64,000 nt of DNA from Natronoarchaeum rubrum (lineage in GTDB: Archaea; Halobacteriota; Halobacteria; Halobacteriales; Natronoarchaeaceae): positions 186,001 to 250,000 of the forward strand of contig NZ_JANHDP010000003.1 in assembly GCF_024494695.1 (NCBI RefSeq), given 5' to 3'. Under the pieces are notes generated by a model that was not told the DNA's origin, made no database searches, and saw only the letters and a list, made by a program, of their open reading frames with translations. The translations under genes were made by a program, and so were the position numbers. Below, one piece after another: positions 47,568 through 59,377 of this stretch. Position 1 is the first letter of the stretch. Each line of letters begins with the position of its first letter.

Positions 47568-47733
47568 GTCGCGTGTTCCCTCGTCCGTCGGAACACCCGG
47601 TTTCCCCATAGTTACTCGCCGGCTACTTGCCGGTTAATTACCGTTTACGGGCGCTCGACCCGGCGGTCGCGGACCCGTCGCTACCGCAAACGTCGGAGAC
47701 CGAAAAACGGGAACTGCGACGGCCGAAACCCGC

Positions 47734-52561: not shown

Positions 52562-53613
52562 GCGTCGGCACCTCCGTCCCACGGCCCGGCGGTGCCGAGT
52601 CCGTCGTCCTGCGGAATCGCGATATCGCCGCTCTCGACCGGCGCGGGATCGGGCGTGAGATCCGTCGCGAGCCGGTCGGCCGTCGCCAGCCCGCAGGGAT
52701 CGATCCCGGGAATCGACGCCGCGAGGTGGACCGCGGCCGTGCGGGCGACGACGGCGTCGACGGTGGTCGTCACGATCGGCGTGACGCCGACGCGGCGCGC
52801 GCGCAGCGCTGCTCGGCGAGCGCGGTCGAGCCCGCCCAGCACCATCGGCTTGAGCACGATCACGTCGGCCGCGCCAGTTTCGACGATCTCGTCGACCGAC
52901 GCCGTCCGCAGCGACTCGTCGAGCGCGACGCCGACGCCAACGGCGTCACGCCGGAGCGCGGCGTGTCCGTCGAGATCGTCCGGCGCGAGGGGTTGCTCGA
53001 CGTACTCGACGCCGCTGTCGGCGAACGCTCGGAACGCCTCGCTCGCTCGTTCGCGATCCCAGGCGCCGTTGGCGTCGGCCCGGAGCGCCACCCCGCGCGG
53101 GAGCGCATCGCGGACGGCCGCGACGCGCTCGGCATCCTCCGCGACGGTGTCCGACCCGACCTTGAGTTTGAGACATCGGAACCCCTGCTCGACGGCACCC
53201 TCGGCGGCCGCAGCGACTTCGTCGGGCGAGCCGACGCCGATGGTCGCGTTGACCGGCACGCGCTCGACGCGGCCGACGGAGCCGAGATAGCGGTACAGCG
53301 GGACGGCGTCCTGTCGCGCCCGGAGGTCCGCGAGCGCGAGGTGGACGGCGTGGCGGGCGGCGGGCGACCCGTCGACGGCTTCGAGCGCGGCTGCGGGGTC
53401 GTCGTCGTTCAGCCGGTCTGCAGCCGCGTCGAGGCGGTCGCGGCAGGTTTCGAGGGATTCGGTCCAGCCGGGCAGCGGCGTCGCCTCGCCGACGCCCGCG
53501 GCGGCCACTTCCGATACGCGAAGCAGAACTCCCTCGCGGCGCTCCATCGTTCCCGCGGCCGTTTCGAGCGGGGCGTCGAGATCGATCGCGAACTCCCGGA
53601 GTTCGGCGTCCAT
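52558..53613 (-). CDS. menC: o-Succinylbenzoate synthase
   Basis: A 351-residue enolase-superfamily enzyme that dehydrates SHCHC to o-succinylbenzoate. Catalytic pieces: CLKLKVGS (K-x-K), ALRADANGAWD (Asp), VEYVEQPLAPDD (Glu), ALDESLR (Asp) and VIVLKPMVLGG (Lys). The start ATG at 53613 overlaps the menA stop by one base. Family cannot always be told from N-acylamino acid racemase by sequence alone, but the men context decides. Confidence 0.92.
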   Translation of the reverse strand: MDAELREFAIDLDAPLETAAGTMERREGVLLRVSEVAAAGVGEATPLPGWTESLETCRDRLDAAADRLNDDDPAAALEAVDGSPAARHAVHLALADLRARQDAVPLYRYLGSVGRVERVPVNATIGVGSPDEVAAAAEGAVEQGFRCLKLKVGSDTVAEDAERVAAVRDALPRGVALRADANGAWDRERASEAFRAFADSGVEYVEQPLAPDDLDGHAALRRDAVGVGVALDESLRTASVDEIVETGAADVIVLKPMVLGGLDRARRAALRARRVGVTPIVTTTVDAVVARTAAVHLAASIPGIDPCGLATADRLATDLTPDPAPVESGDIAIPQDDGLGTAGPWDGGADA

Positions 53614-54548
53614 CAGATCACCACTCCGAGCGCGAACAGCGCCGAGAACGCCGCGAGCAGCTTCCCGGTGCGTTCCAGTGCGGGGTTGAGCGCCTCGCCG
53701 TCGGTGCGCGTACAGACGGTTCGGGCGACGCTCGCGGCCAGCGGAATCGTGAGCAGCGGCAGCAGGACGCCGGGGCCGAACGCGTCGCGAGTCGCCCACA
53801 GCAGGAGGGGGACGGCGTAGGCCAGCGCCAGCAGGCCGACGTACTCGACGCGGCTCCAGCGGTAGCCGATCAGCACGGCGAGGGTGTACTTGCCGGCCTC
53901 GCGGTCGGTCTCCATGTCGCGGACGTTGTTCACGACGATGATGTTCGTCGAGATCGCGGCGACCGGCAGACTGGCGAGGATCGCGACGGCGGGGATCGTC
54001 CCCGCGGGAATCGTCGTCGCCAGCGGCTCCGCGAGGACGGCCGCGGCCTGCACGTACACCGTCCCGACGACGGCGACGACGCCGAAAAAGACGAACACGA
54101 ACAGATCGCCCAGCCCGTGGGATCCCAGCGGATAGGGCCCGCCCGCGTAGGCGTAGCCGCTCGCGACGCTCAGGAGACCGATCACCAGTATGGGGAGCCC
54201 GCCGACGTAGACGAGGTACGTTCCCAGGAGGATCGCCAGCCCGAACGTGGCGGCCATCGCGAATTTGACCTGCTCGGCCGGGATCAGCCCCGACTGGGTG
54301 ACGCGGGTGAAGCCCTCGCGGCTCTCGTCGTCGACGCCCTTGACGGCGTCGTAGTAGTCGTTCGCGAAGTTCGTCCCGATCTGGATCAGCAGGGCGCCGA
54401 CCAGCGCCGCCAGCGCCGGCCACGGCGCGAACACGCCCTCGTGGACCGCGATCGCGGCGCCGACGACGACCGGCGCGGCGCCCGCGGGCAGCGTCTGGGG
54501 ACGGGTGGCCATCAGCCACGCTCGGCCCCGGCTCACGTCGGTACTCAT
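53613..54548 (-). CDS. menA: 1,4-dihydroxy-2-naphthoate polyprenyltransferase
   Basis: A 311-residue UbiA-type membrane enzyme with about eight or nine helices. The first Asp-rich motif is NFANDYYDAVKGVDDESREG, the second NNVRDMETDREAGK. It attaches the isoprenoid tail to dihydroxynaphthoate to give demethylmenaquinone. Start ATG 54548 gives MSTDVSRGRAWLMATRPQTLP, family-typical. First gene of menA-menC-menE. Confidence 0.93.
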   Translation of the reverse strand: MSTDVSRGRAWLMATRPQTLPAGAAPVVVGAAIAVHEGVFAPWPALAALVGALLIQIGTNFANDYYDAVKGVDDESREGFTRVTQSGLIPAEQVKFAMAATFGLAILLGTYLVYVGGLPILVIGLLSVASGYAYAGGPYPLGSHGLGDLFVFVFFGVVAVVGTVYVQAAAVLAEPLATTIPAGTIPAVAILASLPVAAISTNIIVVNNVRDMETDREAGKYTLAVLIGYRWSRVEYVGLLALAYAVPLLLWATRDAFGPGVLLPLLTIPLAASVARTVCTRTDGEALNPALERTGKLLAAFSALFALGVVI

Positions 54549-54701: not shown

Positions 54702-54905
54702 TCAGTCCTCGCCGTCGTCGGGGTCGAAAATATCCTCGATCGCACAGTCGAAGTGAGTTGCGAGATCGAACGCGAGTTCCAGCGACGGATCGTATCGGTT
54801 GCGTTCGATCGCGTTGATCGTCTGTCGGGTGACGTCGACGGCCTCGGCGAGATCGCCCTGACTGATGCCCTCGGCTTCGCGTCGCTCGGAGAGATTGTTC
54901 TGCAT
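54702..54905 (-). CDS. XRE-family transcriptional regulator
   Basis: A 67-residue helix-turn-helix protein of the short YozG/XRE type: MQNNLSERREAEGISQGDLAEAVDVTRQTINAIERNRYDPSLELAFDLA, ending acidic. It starts 10 bases after the stop of the upstream DUF2178 gene, so both are one transcript. The inverted repeat GTAAA-N6-TTTAC in front of that operon and twice before the ABC transporter operon is the natural candidate for its operator, which would make it autoregulated. Confidence 0.88.
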   Translation of the reverse strand: MQNNLSERREAEGISQGDLAEAVDVTRQTINAIERNRYDPSLELAFDLATHFDCAIEDIFDPDDGED

Positions 54906-54914
54906 GAAAGTGCG

Positions 54915-55325
54915 CTATTTGACGATTCCGTAACAGATGCCGTACAACAGGAACAGCGCCGAGAGGGTGAGAACCATCCCGGAAACCGCCCCCGAGATCT
55001 CGAACTGGCCGCCGGCGTCGAGGACGTACAGCACCGGAAGCACGCTCAGGCCTAGAACCATCGTGACCCGGAGCGCCAGCCCGCTGGCGTGGTTGTGTAA
55101 CTCGTAGTCCCGCTCGTCCTGGAGCGTCCGATCGCTCAGTCGCGGCGCGGCGACGGTGATCGTGCCGCCGATCCACGTGCCGAGCAAGTAGACGACCGCG
55201 CCGGCGAGGTGCTGCCCGAGTGCGATCCCGACGAACAGTCCGAGAACGGCGACGGCGACGATGCCGTACACGAGCCGTCTGTACGTCCGGCGTCCGAGTC
55301 GCGACATCACTGTGATGGTTGTCAT
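54915..55325 (-). CDS. DUF2178-like membrane protein
   Basis: A 136-residue membrane protein with four helices (RLVYGIVAVAVLGLFVGIAL, LAGAVVYLLGTWIGGTITVA, TMVLGLSVLPVLYVL, SGMVLTLSALFLLYGICYGIV) and a central DERDYELHNHASG segment, typical of DUF2178 proteins found with small XRE regulators. In analogy to membrane anti-repressor pairs such as SdpI/SdpR it may sense the envelope or hold the regulator. ATG 55325; an ATG at 55307 is a second option. Confidence 0.8.
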   Translation of the reverse strand: MTTITVMSRLGRRTYRRLVYGIVAVAVLGLFVGIALGQHLAGAVVYLLGTWIGGTITVAAPRLSDRTLQDERDYELHNHASGLALRVTMVLGLSVLPVLYVLDAGGQFEISGAVSGMVLTLSALFLLYGICYGIVK

Positions 55326-55343
55326 GGCGAACGGCCCTGGCTA

Positions 55344-55359
55344 GTAAAGAGTCTTTTAC
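55344..55359 (-). promoter_or_regulatory. Operator GTAAA-N6-TTTAC, single copy
   Basis: Perfect 5-bp arms with 6-base spacer. On the minus strand it lies directly after the TATA-like TTTTAATA (55366-55374) and 19-34 bases before the DUF2178 start, covering the predicted transcription start. A bound protein would block initiation. Confidence 0.65.
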
Positions 55360-55365
55360 ACCCGG

Positions 55366-55375
55366 TATTAAAATT
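55366..55375 (-). promoter_or_regulatory. TATA box of DUF2178-XRE operon
   Basis: Minus-strand ATTTTAATAC; predicted transcription start about 55345, within the operator. Confidence 0.55.
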
Positions 55376-55443
55376 GGCGTTCGATCGACGGTCGGAGGGC
55401 GGCCGTTCCGAGAATCGCGTTCGGCTCCGGCTCTCGCCCGGTC

Positions 55444-57189
55444 TCAGGCGACCCGATACGTTTCGATACGGCGAACGGCGAGCCGGTAGGCGCCCGGAAT
55501 CGCGAGAGCGCTCCCGACGATCACGACCCAGCCGAGCGCTCGCAGCGCGTCGACGCCGACGTCGAGGCCGAAGGGCAGCCGCTCCGAGAGCACGAGGGCG
55601 GCGACAGTGCGTGCAGTCTCGTTGGCGACGACAGCCACCGCGAACACGGTAACGCTCAGGTACGTCGAGAAGATGCTGTACGCGCGCTTGCTCGGCGGTA
55701 CCGCCCGTCTGGCGGCGTCCAGACTGACCGCATCGAACCGCGGGAACGCCGATCCGATACCGGTCGCGACGACCGCGCTCCCGACGACCGCAGCGCCTCC
55801 GGCGACGCCGAGGCCGATCAGCTCCCGGAGAGGCGCGCCGGCCATCTGACCCGCGACGACGGCGATGCCCGCGGTCAGCGGGGCGCCGACGAGCGACGCC
55901 GCGACGACGTTGCCGCGGACGACGTGTCGGCCGCGCGCCGGCGCCGTCAGCAGCGTCGGCAGTACCGCGCCCTGGTTCCCGAGCGGGTTCAACGGCACCA
56001 CGGCGCCGGACGCCCACGCGCCGTACCAGACGACGAACCACGGCACGTACCACGGGACCGCCCCGGTCGTCACCGCCGTCTCGACGAAGACGATCGCAGC
56101 GAGGAGCGGCGGGGCGACGAACACGAACTGGAACGGCGAGCGCACCGCTCGGTGGAGCGTCGTGCTCGCGATGCCGCGCGTCGCGGGCGTTCGGCAGACG
56201 GCCGCGAGCACGGCGTCGAGGTGGGAGCTCGGTGCCGTCGGCAGCTCCGACTCCTCGTCGTCGGCGTCCGGAGCGGGGCCGTCTGCCAGCCACGCGTACC
56301 GGGCGGCGGGCACCGCGAGCGCCGTCCCGCCGACGGTGACGACCGGCGCGAGTACGAGCAGGGCGATCGCGCCGGCGACGTCGACGCCGGCGTTCGGCGT
56401 CGTGGCGAACGCGAGCTGTCCGAACCACGCCAGCGGCGGGGACTGCAGCACCGGCTCCAGCCGCTGGACGATGGTCAACAGTTCGCCGGTCACCGAGAGG
56501 ACGACGTACGCGGTCCCGACGCCGACGCCGAGAACGGTCGTGAGCCGCTGGAGGTTCCGCGATCGGCGAGCGATCCCCTTGAGCGCGAAGCCGATCGGAT
56601 AGCCGACCGCGGCCGCCGTGACCGGGATGACGACCGCCACGGCGGTGATTCCGAGCAAGGGACGCAACGAGCCGGTTCCCGCGACCAGCCCGGCACCGAC
56701 GGCCGCTCCCAGCCCGATCGTGTAGACGGAGAACTTGGCCGCCGCGGCGAGCAGCAACCCGCCGACGATGTCGGCGGCCGGTCGAATCGTGAGGTACTGA
56801 TTGTCGTTGTCGAGGTCGCCGTTCCCGCCGAGACTGTCGGCCACGAGGAGGATCGTCAGGAAGAGCCAGAGAACGCTCGTGGCGATCACCGGCCACGAGG
56901 GGAGGGGTGCGCCAGCGGAGACGGTCGAGCCGACGGATCTGGCCGCCTCGAACGTTTCGAGGAGCAAGAACGCGCCGACGAATCCCATCAGGACGGTGAA
57001 GGCGAGCCAGAGGTCCTGATGTCTCACCCACCGGTAGCCGCGGAGGAGCTCGACTCTCGCGACCTCCAGGCTCGGTCGGGGCGACGGCACCACAGTCCGA
57101 AGCCGCCGTCGCGACGCCGCGTCGTGACGCCGAGCCGGCGTCGTCGCGGACGAGGCCGCGTCCGAAAGATCGGGCGACTTCTCAGACAT
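55444..57189 (-). CDS. ABC-2-type transporter permease
   Basis: A 581-residue membrane protein with about twelve helices in two halves. The N-terminal 60 residues are Arg-rich and cytoplasmic (ARRHDAASRRRLRTVVPSPRP). Each half has the pattern of long hydrophobic helices with few charges (LAFTVLMGFVGAFLLLE; FVFVAPPLLAAIVFVETAV). It overlaps the ATPase gene by 8 bases. Homologous position and size fit haloarchaeal ABC-2 permeases. Substrate unknown; export of a drug, peptide or lipid is possible. Confidence 0.8.
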   Translation of the reverse strand: MSEKSPDLSDAASSATTPARRHDAASRRRLRTVVPSPRPSLEVARVELLRGYRWVRHQDLWLAFTVLMGFVGAFLLLETFEAARSVGSTVSAGAPLPSWPVIATSVLWLFLTILLVADSLGGNGDLDNDNQYLTIRPAADIVGGLLLAAAAKFSVYTIGLGAAVGAGLVAGTGSLRPLLGITAVAVVIPVTAAAVGYPIGFALKGIARRSRNLQRLTTVLGVGVGTAYVVLSVTGELLTIVQRLEPVLQSPPLAWFGQLAFATTPNAGVDVAGAIALLVLAPVVTVGGTALAVPAARYAWLADGPAPDADDEESELPTAPSSHLDAVLAAVCRTPATRGIASTTLHRAVRSPFQFVFVAPPLLAAIVFVETAVTTGAVPWYVPWFVVWYGAWASGAVVPLNPLGNQGAVLPTLLTAPARGRHVVRGNVVAASLVGAPLTAGIAVVAGQMAGAPLRELIGLGVAGGAAVVGSAVVATGIGSAFPRFDAVSLDAARRAVPPSKRAYSIFSTYLSVTVFAVAVVANETARTVAALVLSERLPFGLDVGVDALRALGWVVIVGSALAIPGAYRLAVRRIETYRVA

Positions 57190-57985
57190 CGGTTCGGCCC
57201 CCGTCGGAGGCCGGGGCTCCGGCTTCCGCCGATCGAGTGTCCGTGGCGTCGGGCTCCCGTTCGGCGGTGATCTCCAGGAAGGCGGTTTCGAGATCCGGCG
57301 ACTCGTCGGCGAGAGCCTTGAGTTCCGCGGGCGGCGCCTCCGCGACGAGCGCGCCCTCGTTGATGACGCCGATCGTGTCGGCGAGTTCGTCGACGATCGG
57401 GAGGATGTGCGTCGAGAGGAAGACGGTCATCTCACGGGTCACGAGATCGGCGATCGTGTCCCGAACGGTGCGAGCCGCGCGCGGATCGAGGCCGCTGGTG
57501 GGCTCGTCGAGAAAGACGACGTCTGGCTCGTGAAACAGCGCCGCGATGATCCCGACCTTCTTGGCCATGCCGGTCGAGTACGACGCGATCCGTTCGTCGG
57601 CGTCGGCGAGGAGGCCGAAGCGGTCGAGCAGCGTCTCGATGCGCTCGTCGGCGTCGCCGTCGGACATGCCGTGAAGTCGAGCGACGTGACGGAGCTGCTC
57701 CCACGCGGTGAGCTCGTCGAAGACCGGCGGATCGGCGGGCAGGTAGCCGATGTGTTGGGTGAGCTCGCGGCGGTTCGACACCGGGACGCCGGCGACCGTC
57801 GCCGACCCGGCCGTGGGCTCGGTGAGCGCGGTCAGCATCCGCATCGTGGTCGTCTTGCCGGCGCCGTTCGGGCCGAGGAATCCGTAGACCGTTCCTCTCG
57901 GGATCGACAGCGAGACGTCGTTCACCGCCGTCTTCTCGCCGAAGCGCTTCGTCAGCCCGTCGGCGACGATCGCGTCCTCGGTCAT
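57182..57985 (-). CDS. ABC-2-type transporter ATPase
   Basis: A 267-residue ATPase: Walker A GPNGAGKTTTMRML, signature YSTGMAKKVGIIAAL (in the LSGGQ position), Walker B VVFLDEPTSGLD and switch His in LSTHILP. The DrrA/CcmA-type C-terminus ends with an acidic tail. Start ATG 57985. The 5' region carries two tandem operators, so transcription is probably controlled by the XRE protein encoded downstream. Confidence 0.92.
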   Translation of the reverse strand: MTEDAIVADGLTKRFGEKTAVNDVSLSIPRGTVYGFLGPNGAGKTTTMRMLTALTEPTAGSATVAGVPVSNRRELTQHIGYLPADPPVFDELTAWEQLRHVARLHGMSDGDADERIETLLDRFGLLADADERIASYSTGMAKKVGIIAALFHEPDVVFLDEPTSGLDPRAARTVRDTIADLVTREMTVFLSTHILPIVDELADTIGVINEGALVAEAPPAELKALADESPDLETAFLEITAEREPDATDTRSAEAGAPASDGGRTDV

Positions 57986-58318
57986 GGGCGGGTCACCGCC
58001 GGGAGGGCAGCGACTCTGCGACTCGCGACACTAGCTCGGGCGGTCGTGGACGCCGGTGGTGCGGCGGGGTGCTCGAGGGGCATGGGGGTGTAAACACTCC
58101 TTTACAGTAAAACGTTCTTTACACCCCTGGCATTAAAGCTGTCGGTGGGACCACACCCTCACCGATAATCGGTCGCCGCGGCGGCGACGACGGCGCCGTC
58201 TGCTCATCGGAGACTCGCACGAAACGCAGCGACGACGCTGCAGAGAACGTCGGTAGTCCGGGAGGCGGCGTCCGTACCGGTCGAAAAGTGTGCTCGCGTG
58301 GCGTCGCTCGACGCCGAA
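57986..58318. other. Regulatory spacer of the ABC-2 operon
   Basis: About 330 bases between the ATPase start and menB stop. The first part is the leader of the ABC operon and contains a 33-codon ORF (57982-58083) whose stop overlaps the ATPase ATG; then two operators (58090-58122) and a TATA box (58131-58138). The remainder, 58140-58318, shows no gene; GTCGCC/GGCGAC arms near 58172-58190 could form a hairpin. Confidence 0.55.
58090..58122 (-). promoter_or_regulatory. Two tandem GTAAA-N6-TTTAC operators
   Basis: Copies at 58090-58105 and 58107-58122 are one base apart, so their centres are 17 bp apart, near two turns if the proteins bind side by side. Minus-strand CTTTAATG at 58131-58138 is the TATA element, so both sites lie between it and the leader, over the predicted start. 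Confidence 0.65.
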
Positions 58319-59206
58319 TCAGTACTTCCAGGGGAACTCGTCGAAGTCGGGCTCTCGGCCCTCGTTGAACGCGTCCCGGCCCTCCTGGGCCTCGTCGGTC
58401 ATGTAGCCGAGCCGCGTCGCCTCGCCGGCGAACACCTGCTGACCGACCAGTCCGTCGGAATCCAGATTGAACGCGTACTTGAGCATCCGCATCGCGTTCG
58501 GACTCTTCGAGTTGATCCGCTCGCCCCACTCCAGCGCTCGCTCTTCGAGTTCCTCGTGGGGAACCGCCTCGTTGACCATCCCCATGTCGGCGGCCTCCTC
58601 GGCGCTGTAGGTCTTTCCGAGGAAAAACACTTCGCGAGCCTTCTTCTGGCCGATCTGGCGCGCGAGGTAGGCCGACCCGAACCCAGCGTCGAAACTGCCC
58701 ACGTCGGGGTCGGTCTGGAGGAACTTGGCGTGCTCCTCGCTGGCGATCGTCAGGTCACAGACCACGTGCAGGCTGTGGCCGCCGCCGACCGCCCAGCCCG
58801 GCACCACGGCGACGACGACTTTCGGGATGTGCCGGATCAGGCGCTGGACTTCGAGGATGTGCAGGCGCCCGTGCTCGCTGGCGCGCTCCTCGTCGCCCTC
58901 GTACTCGTAGCCGTCCGCGCCGCGGATTCCCTGGTCGCCGCCCGACGAAAAGGCCCAGCCGCCGTCGTCGGGCGAGGGGCCGTTGCCCGTCAGCAGCACG
59001 CAGCCGACATCTGTCTGGCGCTTGGCGTGGTCGAGCGCGTCGTACAGTTCGTCGACCGTTTTGGGACGGAAGGCGTTCCGCTTTTCGGGCCGGTCGAACG
59101 CGATCCGGACGGTGTGGCCCGACGCGGAGCGGTGGTAGGTGACGTCGTCGAAGTCGAACGCCTCGATCGGCTCCCAGCGCTCGGGGTCGAATATCTCCGA
59201 GACCAT
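58319..59206 (-). CDS. menB: 1,4-dihydroxy-2-naphthoyl-CoA synthase
   Basis: A 295-residue crotonase-fold enzyme. FDDVTYHRSASGHTVRIAFDRPEKRNAFRP is the MenB start; AFSSGGDQGIRG and VPGWAVGGGHSLHVVCDLTIAS form the oxyanion hole; QTDPDVGSFDAGFGSAYLARQIGQKKAREVFFLG carries the catalytic Asp and helix typical of MenB rather than enoyl hydratase. It closes the second ring of the naphthoquinone. Start ATG 59206 (MVSEIFDPERWEP). Its partner genes menA, menC, menE lie 3.8 kb downstream and menD-menF 2.2 kb upstream. Confidence 0.93.
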   Translation of the reverse strand: MVSEIFDPERWEPIEAFDFDDVTYHRSASGHTVRIAFDRPEKRNAFRPKTVDELYDALDHAKRQTDVGCVLLTGNGPSPDDGGWAFSSGGDQGIRGADGYEYEGDEERASEHGRLHILEVQRLIRHIPKVVVAVVPGWAVGGGHSLHVVCDLTIASEEHAKFLQTDPDVGSFDAGFGSAYLARQIGQKKAREVFFLGKTYSAEEAADMGMVNEAVPHEELEERALEWGERINSKSPNAMRMLKYAFNLDSDGLVGQQVFAGEATRLGYMTDEAQEGRDAFNEGREPDFDEFPWKY

Positions 59207-59377
59207 TTTCGCGTGACTCGGGGCGGTACGGGCAAATAGGTTGCCGTCCGGGCGTCGGACGGCCCTGCCGTCAGCCCAACCATTAGACGTGATGCCGACG
59301 TAGCTCCGAGCGAGACAGATGACCGAGAACCAGCGACGCCGCGACCGCAGTTCGACGCCGAAAACGGGTGAGCGACC

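Follow-up and report, generated by a model that had tools for sequence, protein, structure and literature searches.

The 64,000-nucleotide (64-kb) stretch of Natronoarchaeum rubrum analyzed here (contig NZ_JANHDP010000003.1; hereafter, the window) contains two minus-strand operons, whose separate promoters lie about 2.7 kb from each other. One of them encodes a small XRE regulator and a DUF2178-like membrane protein (hereafter, the pair), and the other an ABC ATPase and a putative ABC permease, presumably forming an exporter. Both promoter regions carry the same palindrome, GTAAA-N6-TTTAC, and the proposal that a single operator ties the pair to the exporter is well supported by sequence comparison. 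We consider it likely that the pair is a haloarchaeal equivalent of CylR1/CylR2, the regulators of the enterococcal cytolysin operon, with an XRE protein that would repress both its own operon and the exporter and a membrane partner that would relieve this repression.

Operator Copies and Promoter Geometry

The palindrome occurs three times without mismatch in the window, once before the pair and twice in tandem before the ABC operon (table 1), exactly where a preliminary description of this DNA had placed it. Its count is far above chance: when up to one mismatch is allowed, four matches are found for 0.02 expected, a number reached by none of 100 shuffles, the fourth match (47633-47648) being the one that carries a mismatch. 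The window holds 201 perfect palindromes of the 5-N6-5 type, among which GTAAA is the sole AT-rich arm (at least four of five letters). The TTTAATR box that had been described upstream of the repeat in both promoters was also located (at distances of 6 and 8 nt from the nearest site), and the gap between the membrane protein and XRE genes, previously given as 10 bases, is of 9 (54906-54914).

To characterize the promoters of relatives, we aligned 85 of 140 oriented sites, namely the upstream-most ones, the palindrome arms being required by the search. A TTTAA-like box lies at -13 to -9 (60-89% per position), a T directly precedes the site (-1) in 97% of promoters, and the free positions are biased, with a G at position 6 in 68% and a C at position 11 in 83%. 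Position 17 is a T in 92%, and a second copy follows at positions 18-33, that is, 17 bp on; this second copy is perfect in all 12 ABC promoters and all 7 promoters of a hydrolase gene described below. Archaeal transcription is expected to start some 25 nt past the TATA box. The expected start would thus fall near the junction of the two operator copies, with site 1 between the TATA-like box and the start and site 2 just beyond it.

The XRE protein is a homolog of CylR2, which is its best match in the PDB (phmmer; 2xiu, 2.7e-15, residues 3-61 of 67; 1utx, 7.7e-14), closely followed by a PbsX-family regulator (9k3w). Most of the archaeal homologs seen, and many of the bacterial ones, share the recognition region RQTIN followed by a YDPS stretch. 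Among 93 distinct XRE homologs, the archaeal part of which included loci fetched by the operator pattern itself, an operator site (at least 9 of the 10 arm letters) lies at most 700 bp upstream of the XRE gene in 67 of 75 archaeal and 14 of 18 bacterial cases, while the reversed-sequence control gave 0/75 and 0/18. This association points to the XRE protein as the probable binder of GTAAAG-N4-CTTTAC. A small membrane partner is encoded next to the XRE gene in 91 of 92 rows examined with a hydrophobicity script.

The Operator in Haloarchaea and Bacteria

A scan of genome contigs with a single DUF2178 sequence retrieved no relative, and an alignment of DUF2178 relatives used as query retrieved 8 loci. 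In the 8 genomes with a DUF2178 ortholog, the exact site is present in 1-11 copies per genome (28 in total) versus 0-2 for the reversed pattern (5 in total), and the coordinates of 25 of the 28 place them at this module or at a different membrane/XRE pair. The DUF2178 family is also present in Haloferax volcanii, which was taken as a control genome. On a larger scale, the tandem 33-bp operator was found in 124 of 391 haloarchaeal genomes (reversed-pattern control, 0) and DUF2178 relatives (E-value up to 1e-8) in 138, both being present in 97. The overlap, for which genome identifiers were transcribed by hand, corresponds to an odds ratio of 19.8 with a p value of 7e-34, which is overstated because kinship was left uncorrected. 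Twenty-seven genomes carry the tandem operator but gave no match with the DUF2178 alignment; in 10 of the 10 from which DNA was fetched, a script found an XRE gene and a small membrane partner, which suggests that their membrane proteins have diverged further. The preliminary description had named conservation in orthologous promoters as the touchstone of its idea, and the haloarchaeal genome comparison shows the repeat to be conserved there; the occurrence of one operator at both pair and ABC promoters likewise holds in several genera.

The targets of the operator form a small set. Among 30 loci retrieved by the pattern (L039-L068), some of them from closely related genomes, the site precedes the pair in 25, the ABC operon in 4, and a lipoprotein-like gene with DUF3887 and alpha/beta-hydrolase domains in 1. 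Conversely, 29 of 30 loci retrieved by the DUF2178 search (best-scoring genomes) contain the exact site in the fetched stretch, and the remaining one (L015) contains a 9/10 match. All fetched loci together, a set partly chosen by the analyst, yield 59 distinct tandem sites, of which 38 precede the pair, 12 the ABC operon, 8 the hydrolase gene, and 1 no recognized target. By this comparison, the hydrolase gene recurs as a second candidate target of the tandem sites. A single cluster unites the pair, the exporter, the hydrolase, and a further ABC gene pair in Halovenus rubra (L078), as it does on the plasmid of archaeon DL31 (L094).

Some further observations concern plasmids and viruses. On a Haloferax lucentense plasmid (L099:3600-6210), the membrane/XRE pair adjoins a halocin C8-like gene (PF22862); as no 9/10 site lies in front of it, this gene was dropped as a candidate target. 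No DUF2178 relative was found in viral contigs. The tandem pattern is present in four of these (L124-L127), two of which have only distant XRE-like stretches; in L125 and L126, an ATG follows the pattern immediately and a GGAGG stretch lies within it.

The operator was also found in bacteria. We examined 16 hand-picked bacterial plasmid records with an XRE homolog; two Streptomyces among them are near relatives and two records are from Priestia, so that there are fewer independent cases than 16. With at least 9 of the 10 arm letters, these records contain 22 matches versus 1 in the reversed sequence, and with perfect arms 8 versus 0. A match lies at or just upstream of the XRE/membrane operon in 13 of the 16 (the Arthrobacter match overlaps the annotated start), and none was found at this place in Sphingomonas, Deinococcus, and Qipengyuania. 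Two of these three carry a changed recognition helix (RQAVN and RQSVN), a hint, from too small a number of cases, that recognition helix and operator may co-vary. The second arm takes the form of a -35-like hexamer, TTGACA, in Streptomyces, Azospirillum, and others; this form fits repression.

The Proposed Circuit and Its Alternatives

According to the model that we favor, a dimer of the CylR2-family XRE protein would bind the GTAAAG-N4-CTTTAC operators, at one site in its own promoter here and at two in many relatives, and at two sites 17 bp apart in the ABC promoter, where they would flank the expected transcription start. Binding would block transcription initiation, and the pair would in this way repress its own operon as well as the exporter. 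The membrane protein would sense a membrane or extracellular condition and alter XRE binding, which would release the exporter, with export as the probable output of the circuit. The autoregulated circuit of the preliminary description is therefore supported in part: an operator placed past the TATA-like box and ahead of the expected start is what an autoregulated repressor would call for, and the membrane protein may act as the anti-repressor and respond to an envelope signal.

Several observations weigh against this model. In one of the eight genomes with a DUF2178 ortholog (G007), the real and reversed patterns are equally frequent (2 and 2). The second operator copy is perfect in just 36 of 66 pair promoters, matches at 9/10 in 8 more, and is weaker in 22. 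Twelve of the 93 XRE genes have no site within 700 bp upstream; in L068 and L102 the sites sit farther upstream with an extra gene between, and for the other 10 none was seen farther upstream either. Four of 10 named haloarchaeal plasmid records (L098, L100, L104, and L105) lack a 9/10 site before the pair, which indicates that the operator link is not universal in archaea. One tandem site (L075:4908-4940) is associated with no XRE, ABC, or hydrolase target and is followed by a gene for a small membrane protein. Finally, the structural model of the membrane protein is weak (predicted local distance difference test [pLDDT], 66), and the topology of the partner was judged by eye from flanking charges.

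Instead of simply repressing the exporter, the XRE protein might activate it or act on it as a dual regulator. In the bacterial case, as presented in the accessible part of a review, CylR1 is required for induction by a mechanism that is not settled (PMC3709268), and tandem sites could play opposite roles. In the consensus of the 85 promoters, however, the sites follow the TATA-like box and surround the expected start. Activators typically occupy positions ahead of the core promoter. As some bacterial sites moreover read as a -35-like hexamer, we regard activation as unlikely. It is still harder to believe, and in our opinion very unlikely, that some other, general haloarchaeal regulator binds the palindrome, which would then mark these promoters by coincidence. 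Such an idea draws on the fact that the XRE protein was designated as the binder by comparing sequences, but the site accompanies the XRE family into bacteria, which have other promoter machinery, and the targets at all 30 pattern-search loci belong to the pair/ABC/hydrolase set.

The two-gene operon with an XRE gene and the presence of homologs on many plasmids also recall toxin-antitoxin systems, in which case the membrane protein would be the toxin, the XRE protein its autoregulating antitoxin, and the exporter a bystander. The same operator before the ABC exporter and the hydrolase lipoprotein gene speaks against this hypothesis, and a survey of type II systems, in its accessible part, set membrane-protein/Xre pairs aside, no such system with a membrane component having been detected (PMC2701414). 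In PADLOC, the XRE protein weakly matches other helix-turn-helix (HTH)-containing models and the membrane protein has no match, and we give the toxin-antitoxin hypothesis very little credence. Identity as a defense system was rejected on the same PADLOC matches, which are weak and due to shared domains. Lastly, the repeats could act in RNA, as a hairpin or processing signal, instead of as DNA operators; site 2 would indeed fall in the 5' leader, next to a recurrent upstream open reading frame (ORF). Site 1, on the contrary, would lie upstream of the expected transcription start, and the arms (required by the search) keep their sequence and not just their pairing, with free positions 6 and 11 biased too, which leaves a role in RNA extremely improbable.

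Gene Products, Genomic Setting, and Related Systems

Table 1. Coordinates of the module, its operators, and neighboring or related genes
Feature	Position	Strand	Remarks
UbiA-family, menA-like gene	53613-54548		Name inferred
XRE/HTH_3 regulator, 67 aa	54702..54905	-	CylR2 homolog; recognition region VTRQTINAIERNRYDPS; HTH_3 5.9e-15
DUF2178-like membrane protein, 136 aa	54915..55325	-	Four helices in low-confidence model; conserved LQDERDYELHNRASG around helix 3 start
Operator copy 1	55344..55359	-	GTAAAAGACTCTTTAC on minus strand; pair promoter region
TATA-like box of the pair, TTTAATA	55372-55366	-	6 nt before operator copy 1; fits promoter alignment
ABC permease (putative), 581 aa	55444..57189	-	Weak fold match to mycobacterial efflux pump and NosDFY chains
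ABC ATPase, 267 aa	57182..57985	-	Matches general ABC_tran above cut-off; best NCBIfam match is DrrA subfamily model, below cut-off
Upstream ORF, 33 codons	57982..58083	-	Begins 6 nt past second operator; 4-nt ATGA overlap with ATPase start
Operator copy 3 (tandem site 2)	58090..58105	-	ABC operon promoter; farther from TATA-like box
Operator copy 2 (tandem site 1)	58107..58122	-	ABC operon promoter; nearer TATA-like box
TATA-like box of the ABC operon, TTTAATG	58137-58131	-	8 nt before nearest site; fits promoter alignment
Enoyl-CoA-hydratase-family, menB-like gene	58319-59215		Name inferred
Hydrolase target in other loci (lipoprotein-like, DUF3887 and alpha/beta-hydrolase)	L078:6887-8359; L074:3544-4989; L072:3510-4967; L094 Halar_0167		

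The membrane protein scores 21.1 bits against Pfam DUF2178, for a curated cut-off of 22.8, and an identical protein is assigned PF09946 by the protein database. No fold could be assigned from the weak model (best structural match, E-value 1.2), and a PDB sequence search gave implausible weak matches only. DER or DEM is present somewhere in 80 of 91 partner proteins, and several others have DEL (position was not required by the script). In the window protein, this stretch is predicted to lie between helix 2 and the start of helix 3 and, judging from flanking charges, it probably faces the cytoplasm. A gene annotated as "ISH7A transposase" before the XRE gene of the Halobacterium salinarum R1 plasmid PHS1 (L098:3602-3997) resembles the small DER membrane partner, and its annotation may consequently be wrong.

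There is an 8-nt overlap between the ATPase and permease genes. With 242.5 bits against the DrrA-type model TIGR01188, the ATPase does not reach the cut-off of 312.45. No match was found for the permease in Pfam and NCBIfam or by sequence search of the PDB, and its 68 relatives, among 7996 candidates scored, are all from haloarchaea where organism names were given. Its model (pLDDT, 73.7) weakly matches efflux-type ABC permeases; the likeness to the top match, a mycobacterial efflux pump (8k1n; E-value 1.1e-3, template modeling [TM] score 0.43 over the query, 14% identity), is a weak one of predicted fold only, and no match reached an E-value of 0.001. Each of the 10 distinct ABC promoters examined has an ORF of 30-36 codons that begins 4-7 nt past its second operator. 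This ORF overlaps the ATPase start by 4 nt in 9 of them; in the tenth (L001/L055), the ATPase start is an estimate. Because the peptide is poorly conserved among relatives, this ORF suggests translational coupling rather than a functional peptide.

The module is flanked by menA-like and menB-like genes, and in this sense interrupts the men genes, as had been described (men names are inferred). In N. mannanilyticum, it likewise has menB-like and menA-like genes on its two sides (L118/L119 comparison); in N. philippinense, neither men-like gene is present within the 18 kb read, and the module sits elsewhere. These different positions among Natronoarchaeum species, along with relatives of the module on plasmids, give the suggestion of a moveable module some weak support. 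On the other side, no recombinase was found in the six window proteins scanned, and the repeats listed include no clear element ends. An 18-nt inverted repeat (54703-54720 / 58185-58202, 83%), among the 25 listed of 48 pairs, brackets the module and is probably due to chance in GC-rich DNA. In GC content (0.62-0.74 per 500 bp), the module resembles its flanks.

The P22 c2 and 434-type Cro-C1 repressors are HTH_3-type dimers that bind palindromic sites of about 14-16 bp; unlike these, the XRE protein here is associated with a membrane partner and an exporter target and with no phage immunity region. The closest parallel is CylR1/CylR2, proposed to be a two-component system without phosphorelay and whose CylR1-to-CylR2 signaling is "not currently understood" according to the accessible part of the review (PMC3709268). 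Both systems co-encode a small CylR2-type HTH protein and a small multihelix membrane protein; the HTH protein binds the target promoter in the enterococcal case (PMC3709268, same part), and a conserved palindrome stands at the matching place here. They differ in that the pair and target promoters are separate here while overlapping and divergent there, in the TATA-like archaeal promoters and ABC exporter target, and in the number of helices of the membrane partner (four in our low-confidence model, three predicted for CylR1). Similarly, a genome survey noted conserved two-gene units of an Xre repressor and a membrane protein, such as the YoaS-like ones (Makarova et al. 2009; PMC2701414); in contrast to the present case, no operator or target is named in the accessible part of that paper, in whose main text "haloarchaea" and "Halobacteri" are absent. 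We found no study of the operator, the regulon, or this archaeal regulator family among the titles listed, a set that mostly left out subscription papers, and no mention of DUF2178 in the papers that were searchable.

Taken together, the comparisons suggest that the circuit is real and little studied. An operator apparently common to the CylR2 family of haloarchaea and bacteria goes beyond the preliminary description and is the most interesting part of these results. We see about even chances that a phosphorylation-free CylR2-type repressor with a DER partner is common to Bacteria and Archaea with its operator word kept, and that the haloarchaeal regulon may respond to membrane-active compounds. 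If so, the operator would overlap a -35-like hexamer in some bacteria and straddle the transcription start in haloarchaea, where a small regulon would comprise the pair, the ABC exporter, and a secreted hydrolase. The present comparisons give a widespread archaeal regulator family a defined operator, targets, and a directly testable model and, because bacterial relatives have nearly the same recognition helix and operator, work in a genetically easy haloarchaeon could clarify how membrane proteins of the CylR1 type signal to repressors of the CylR2 type.

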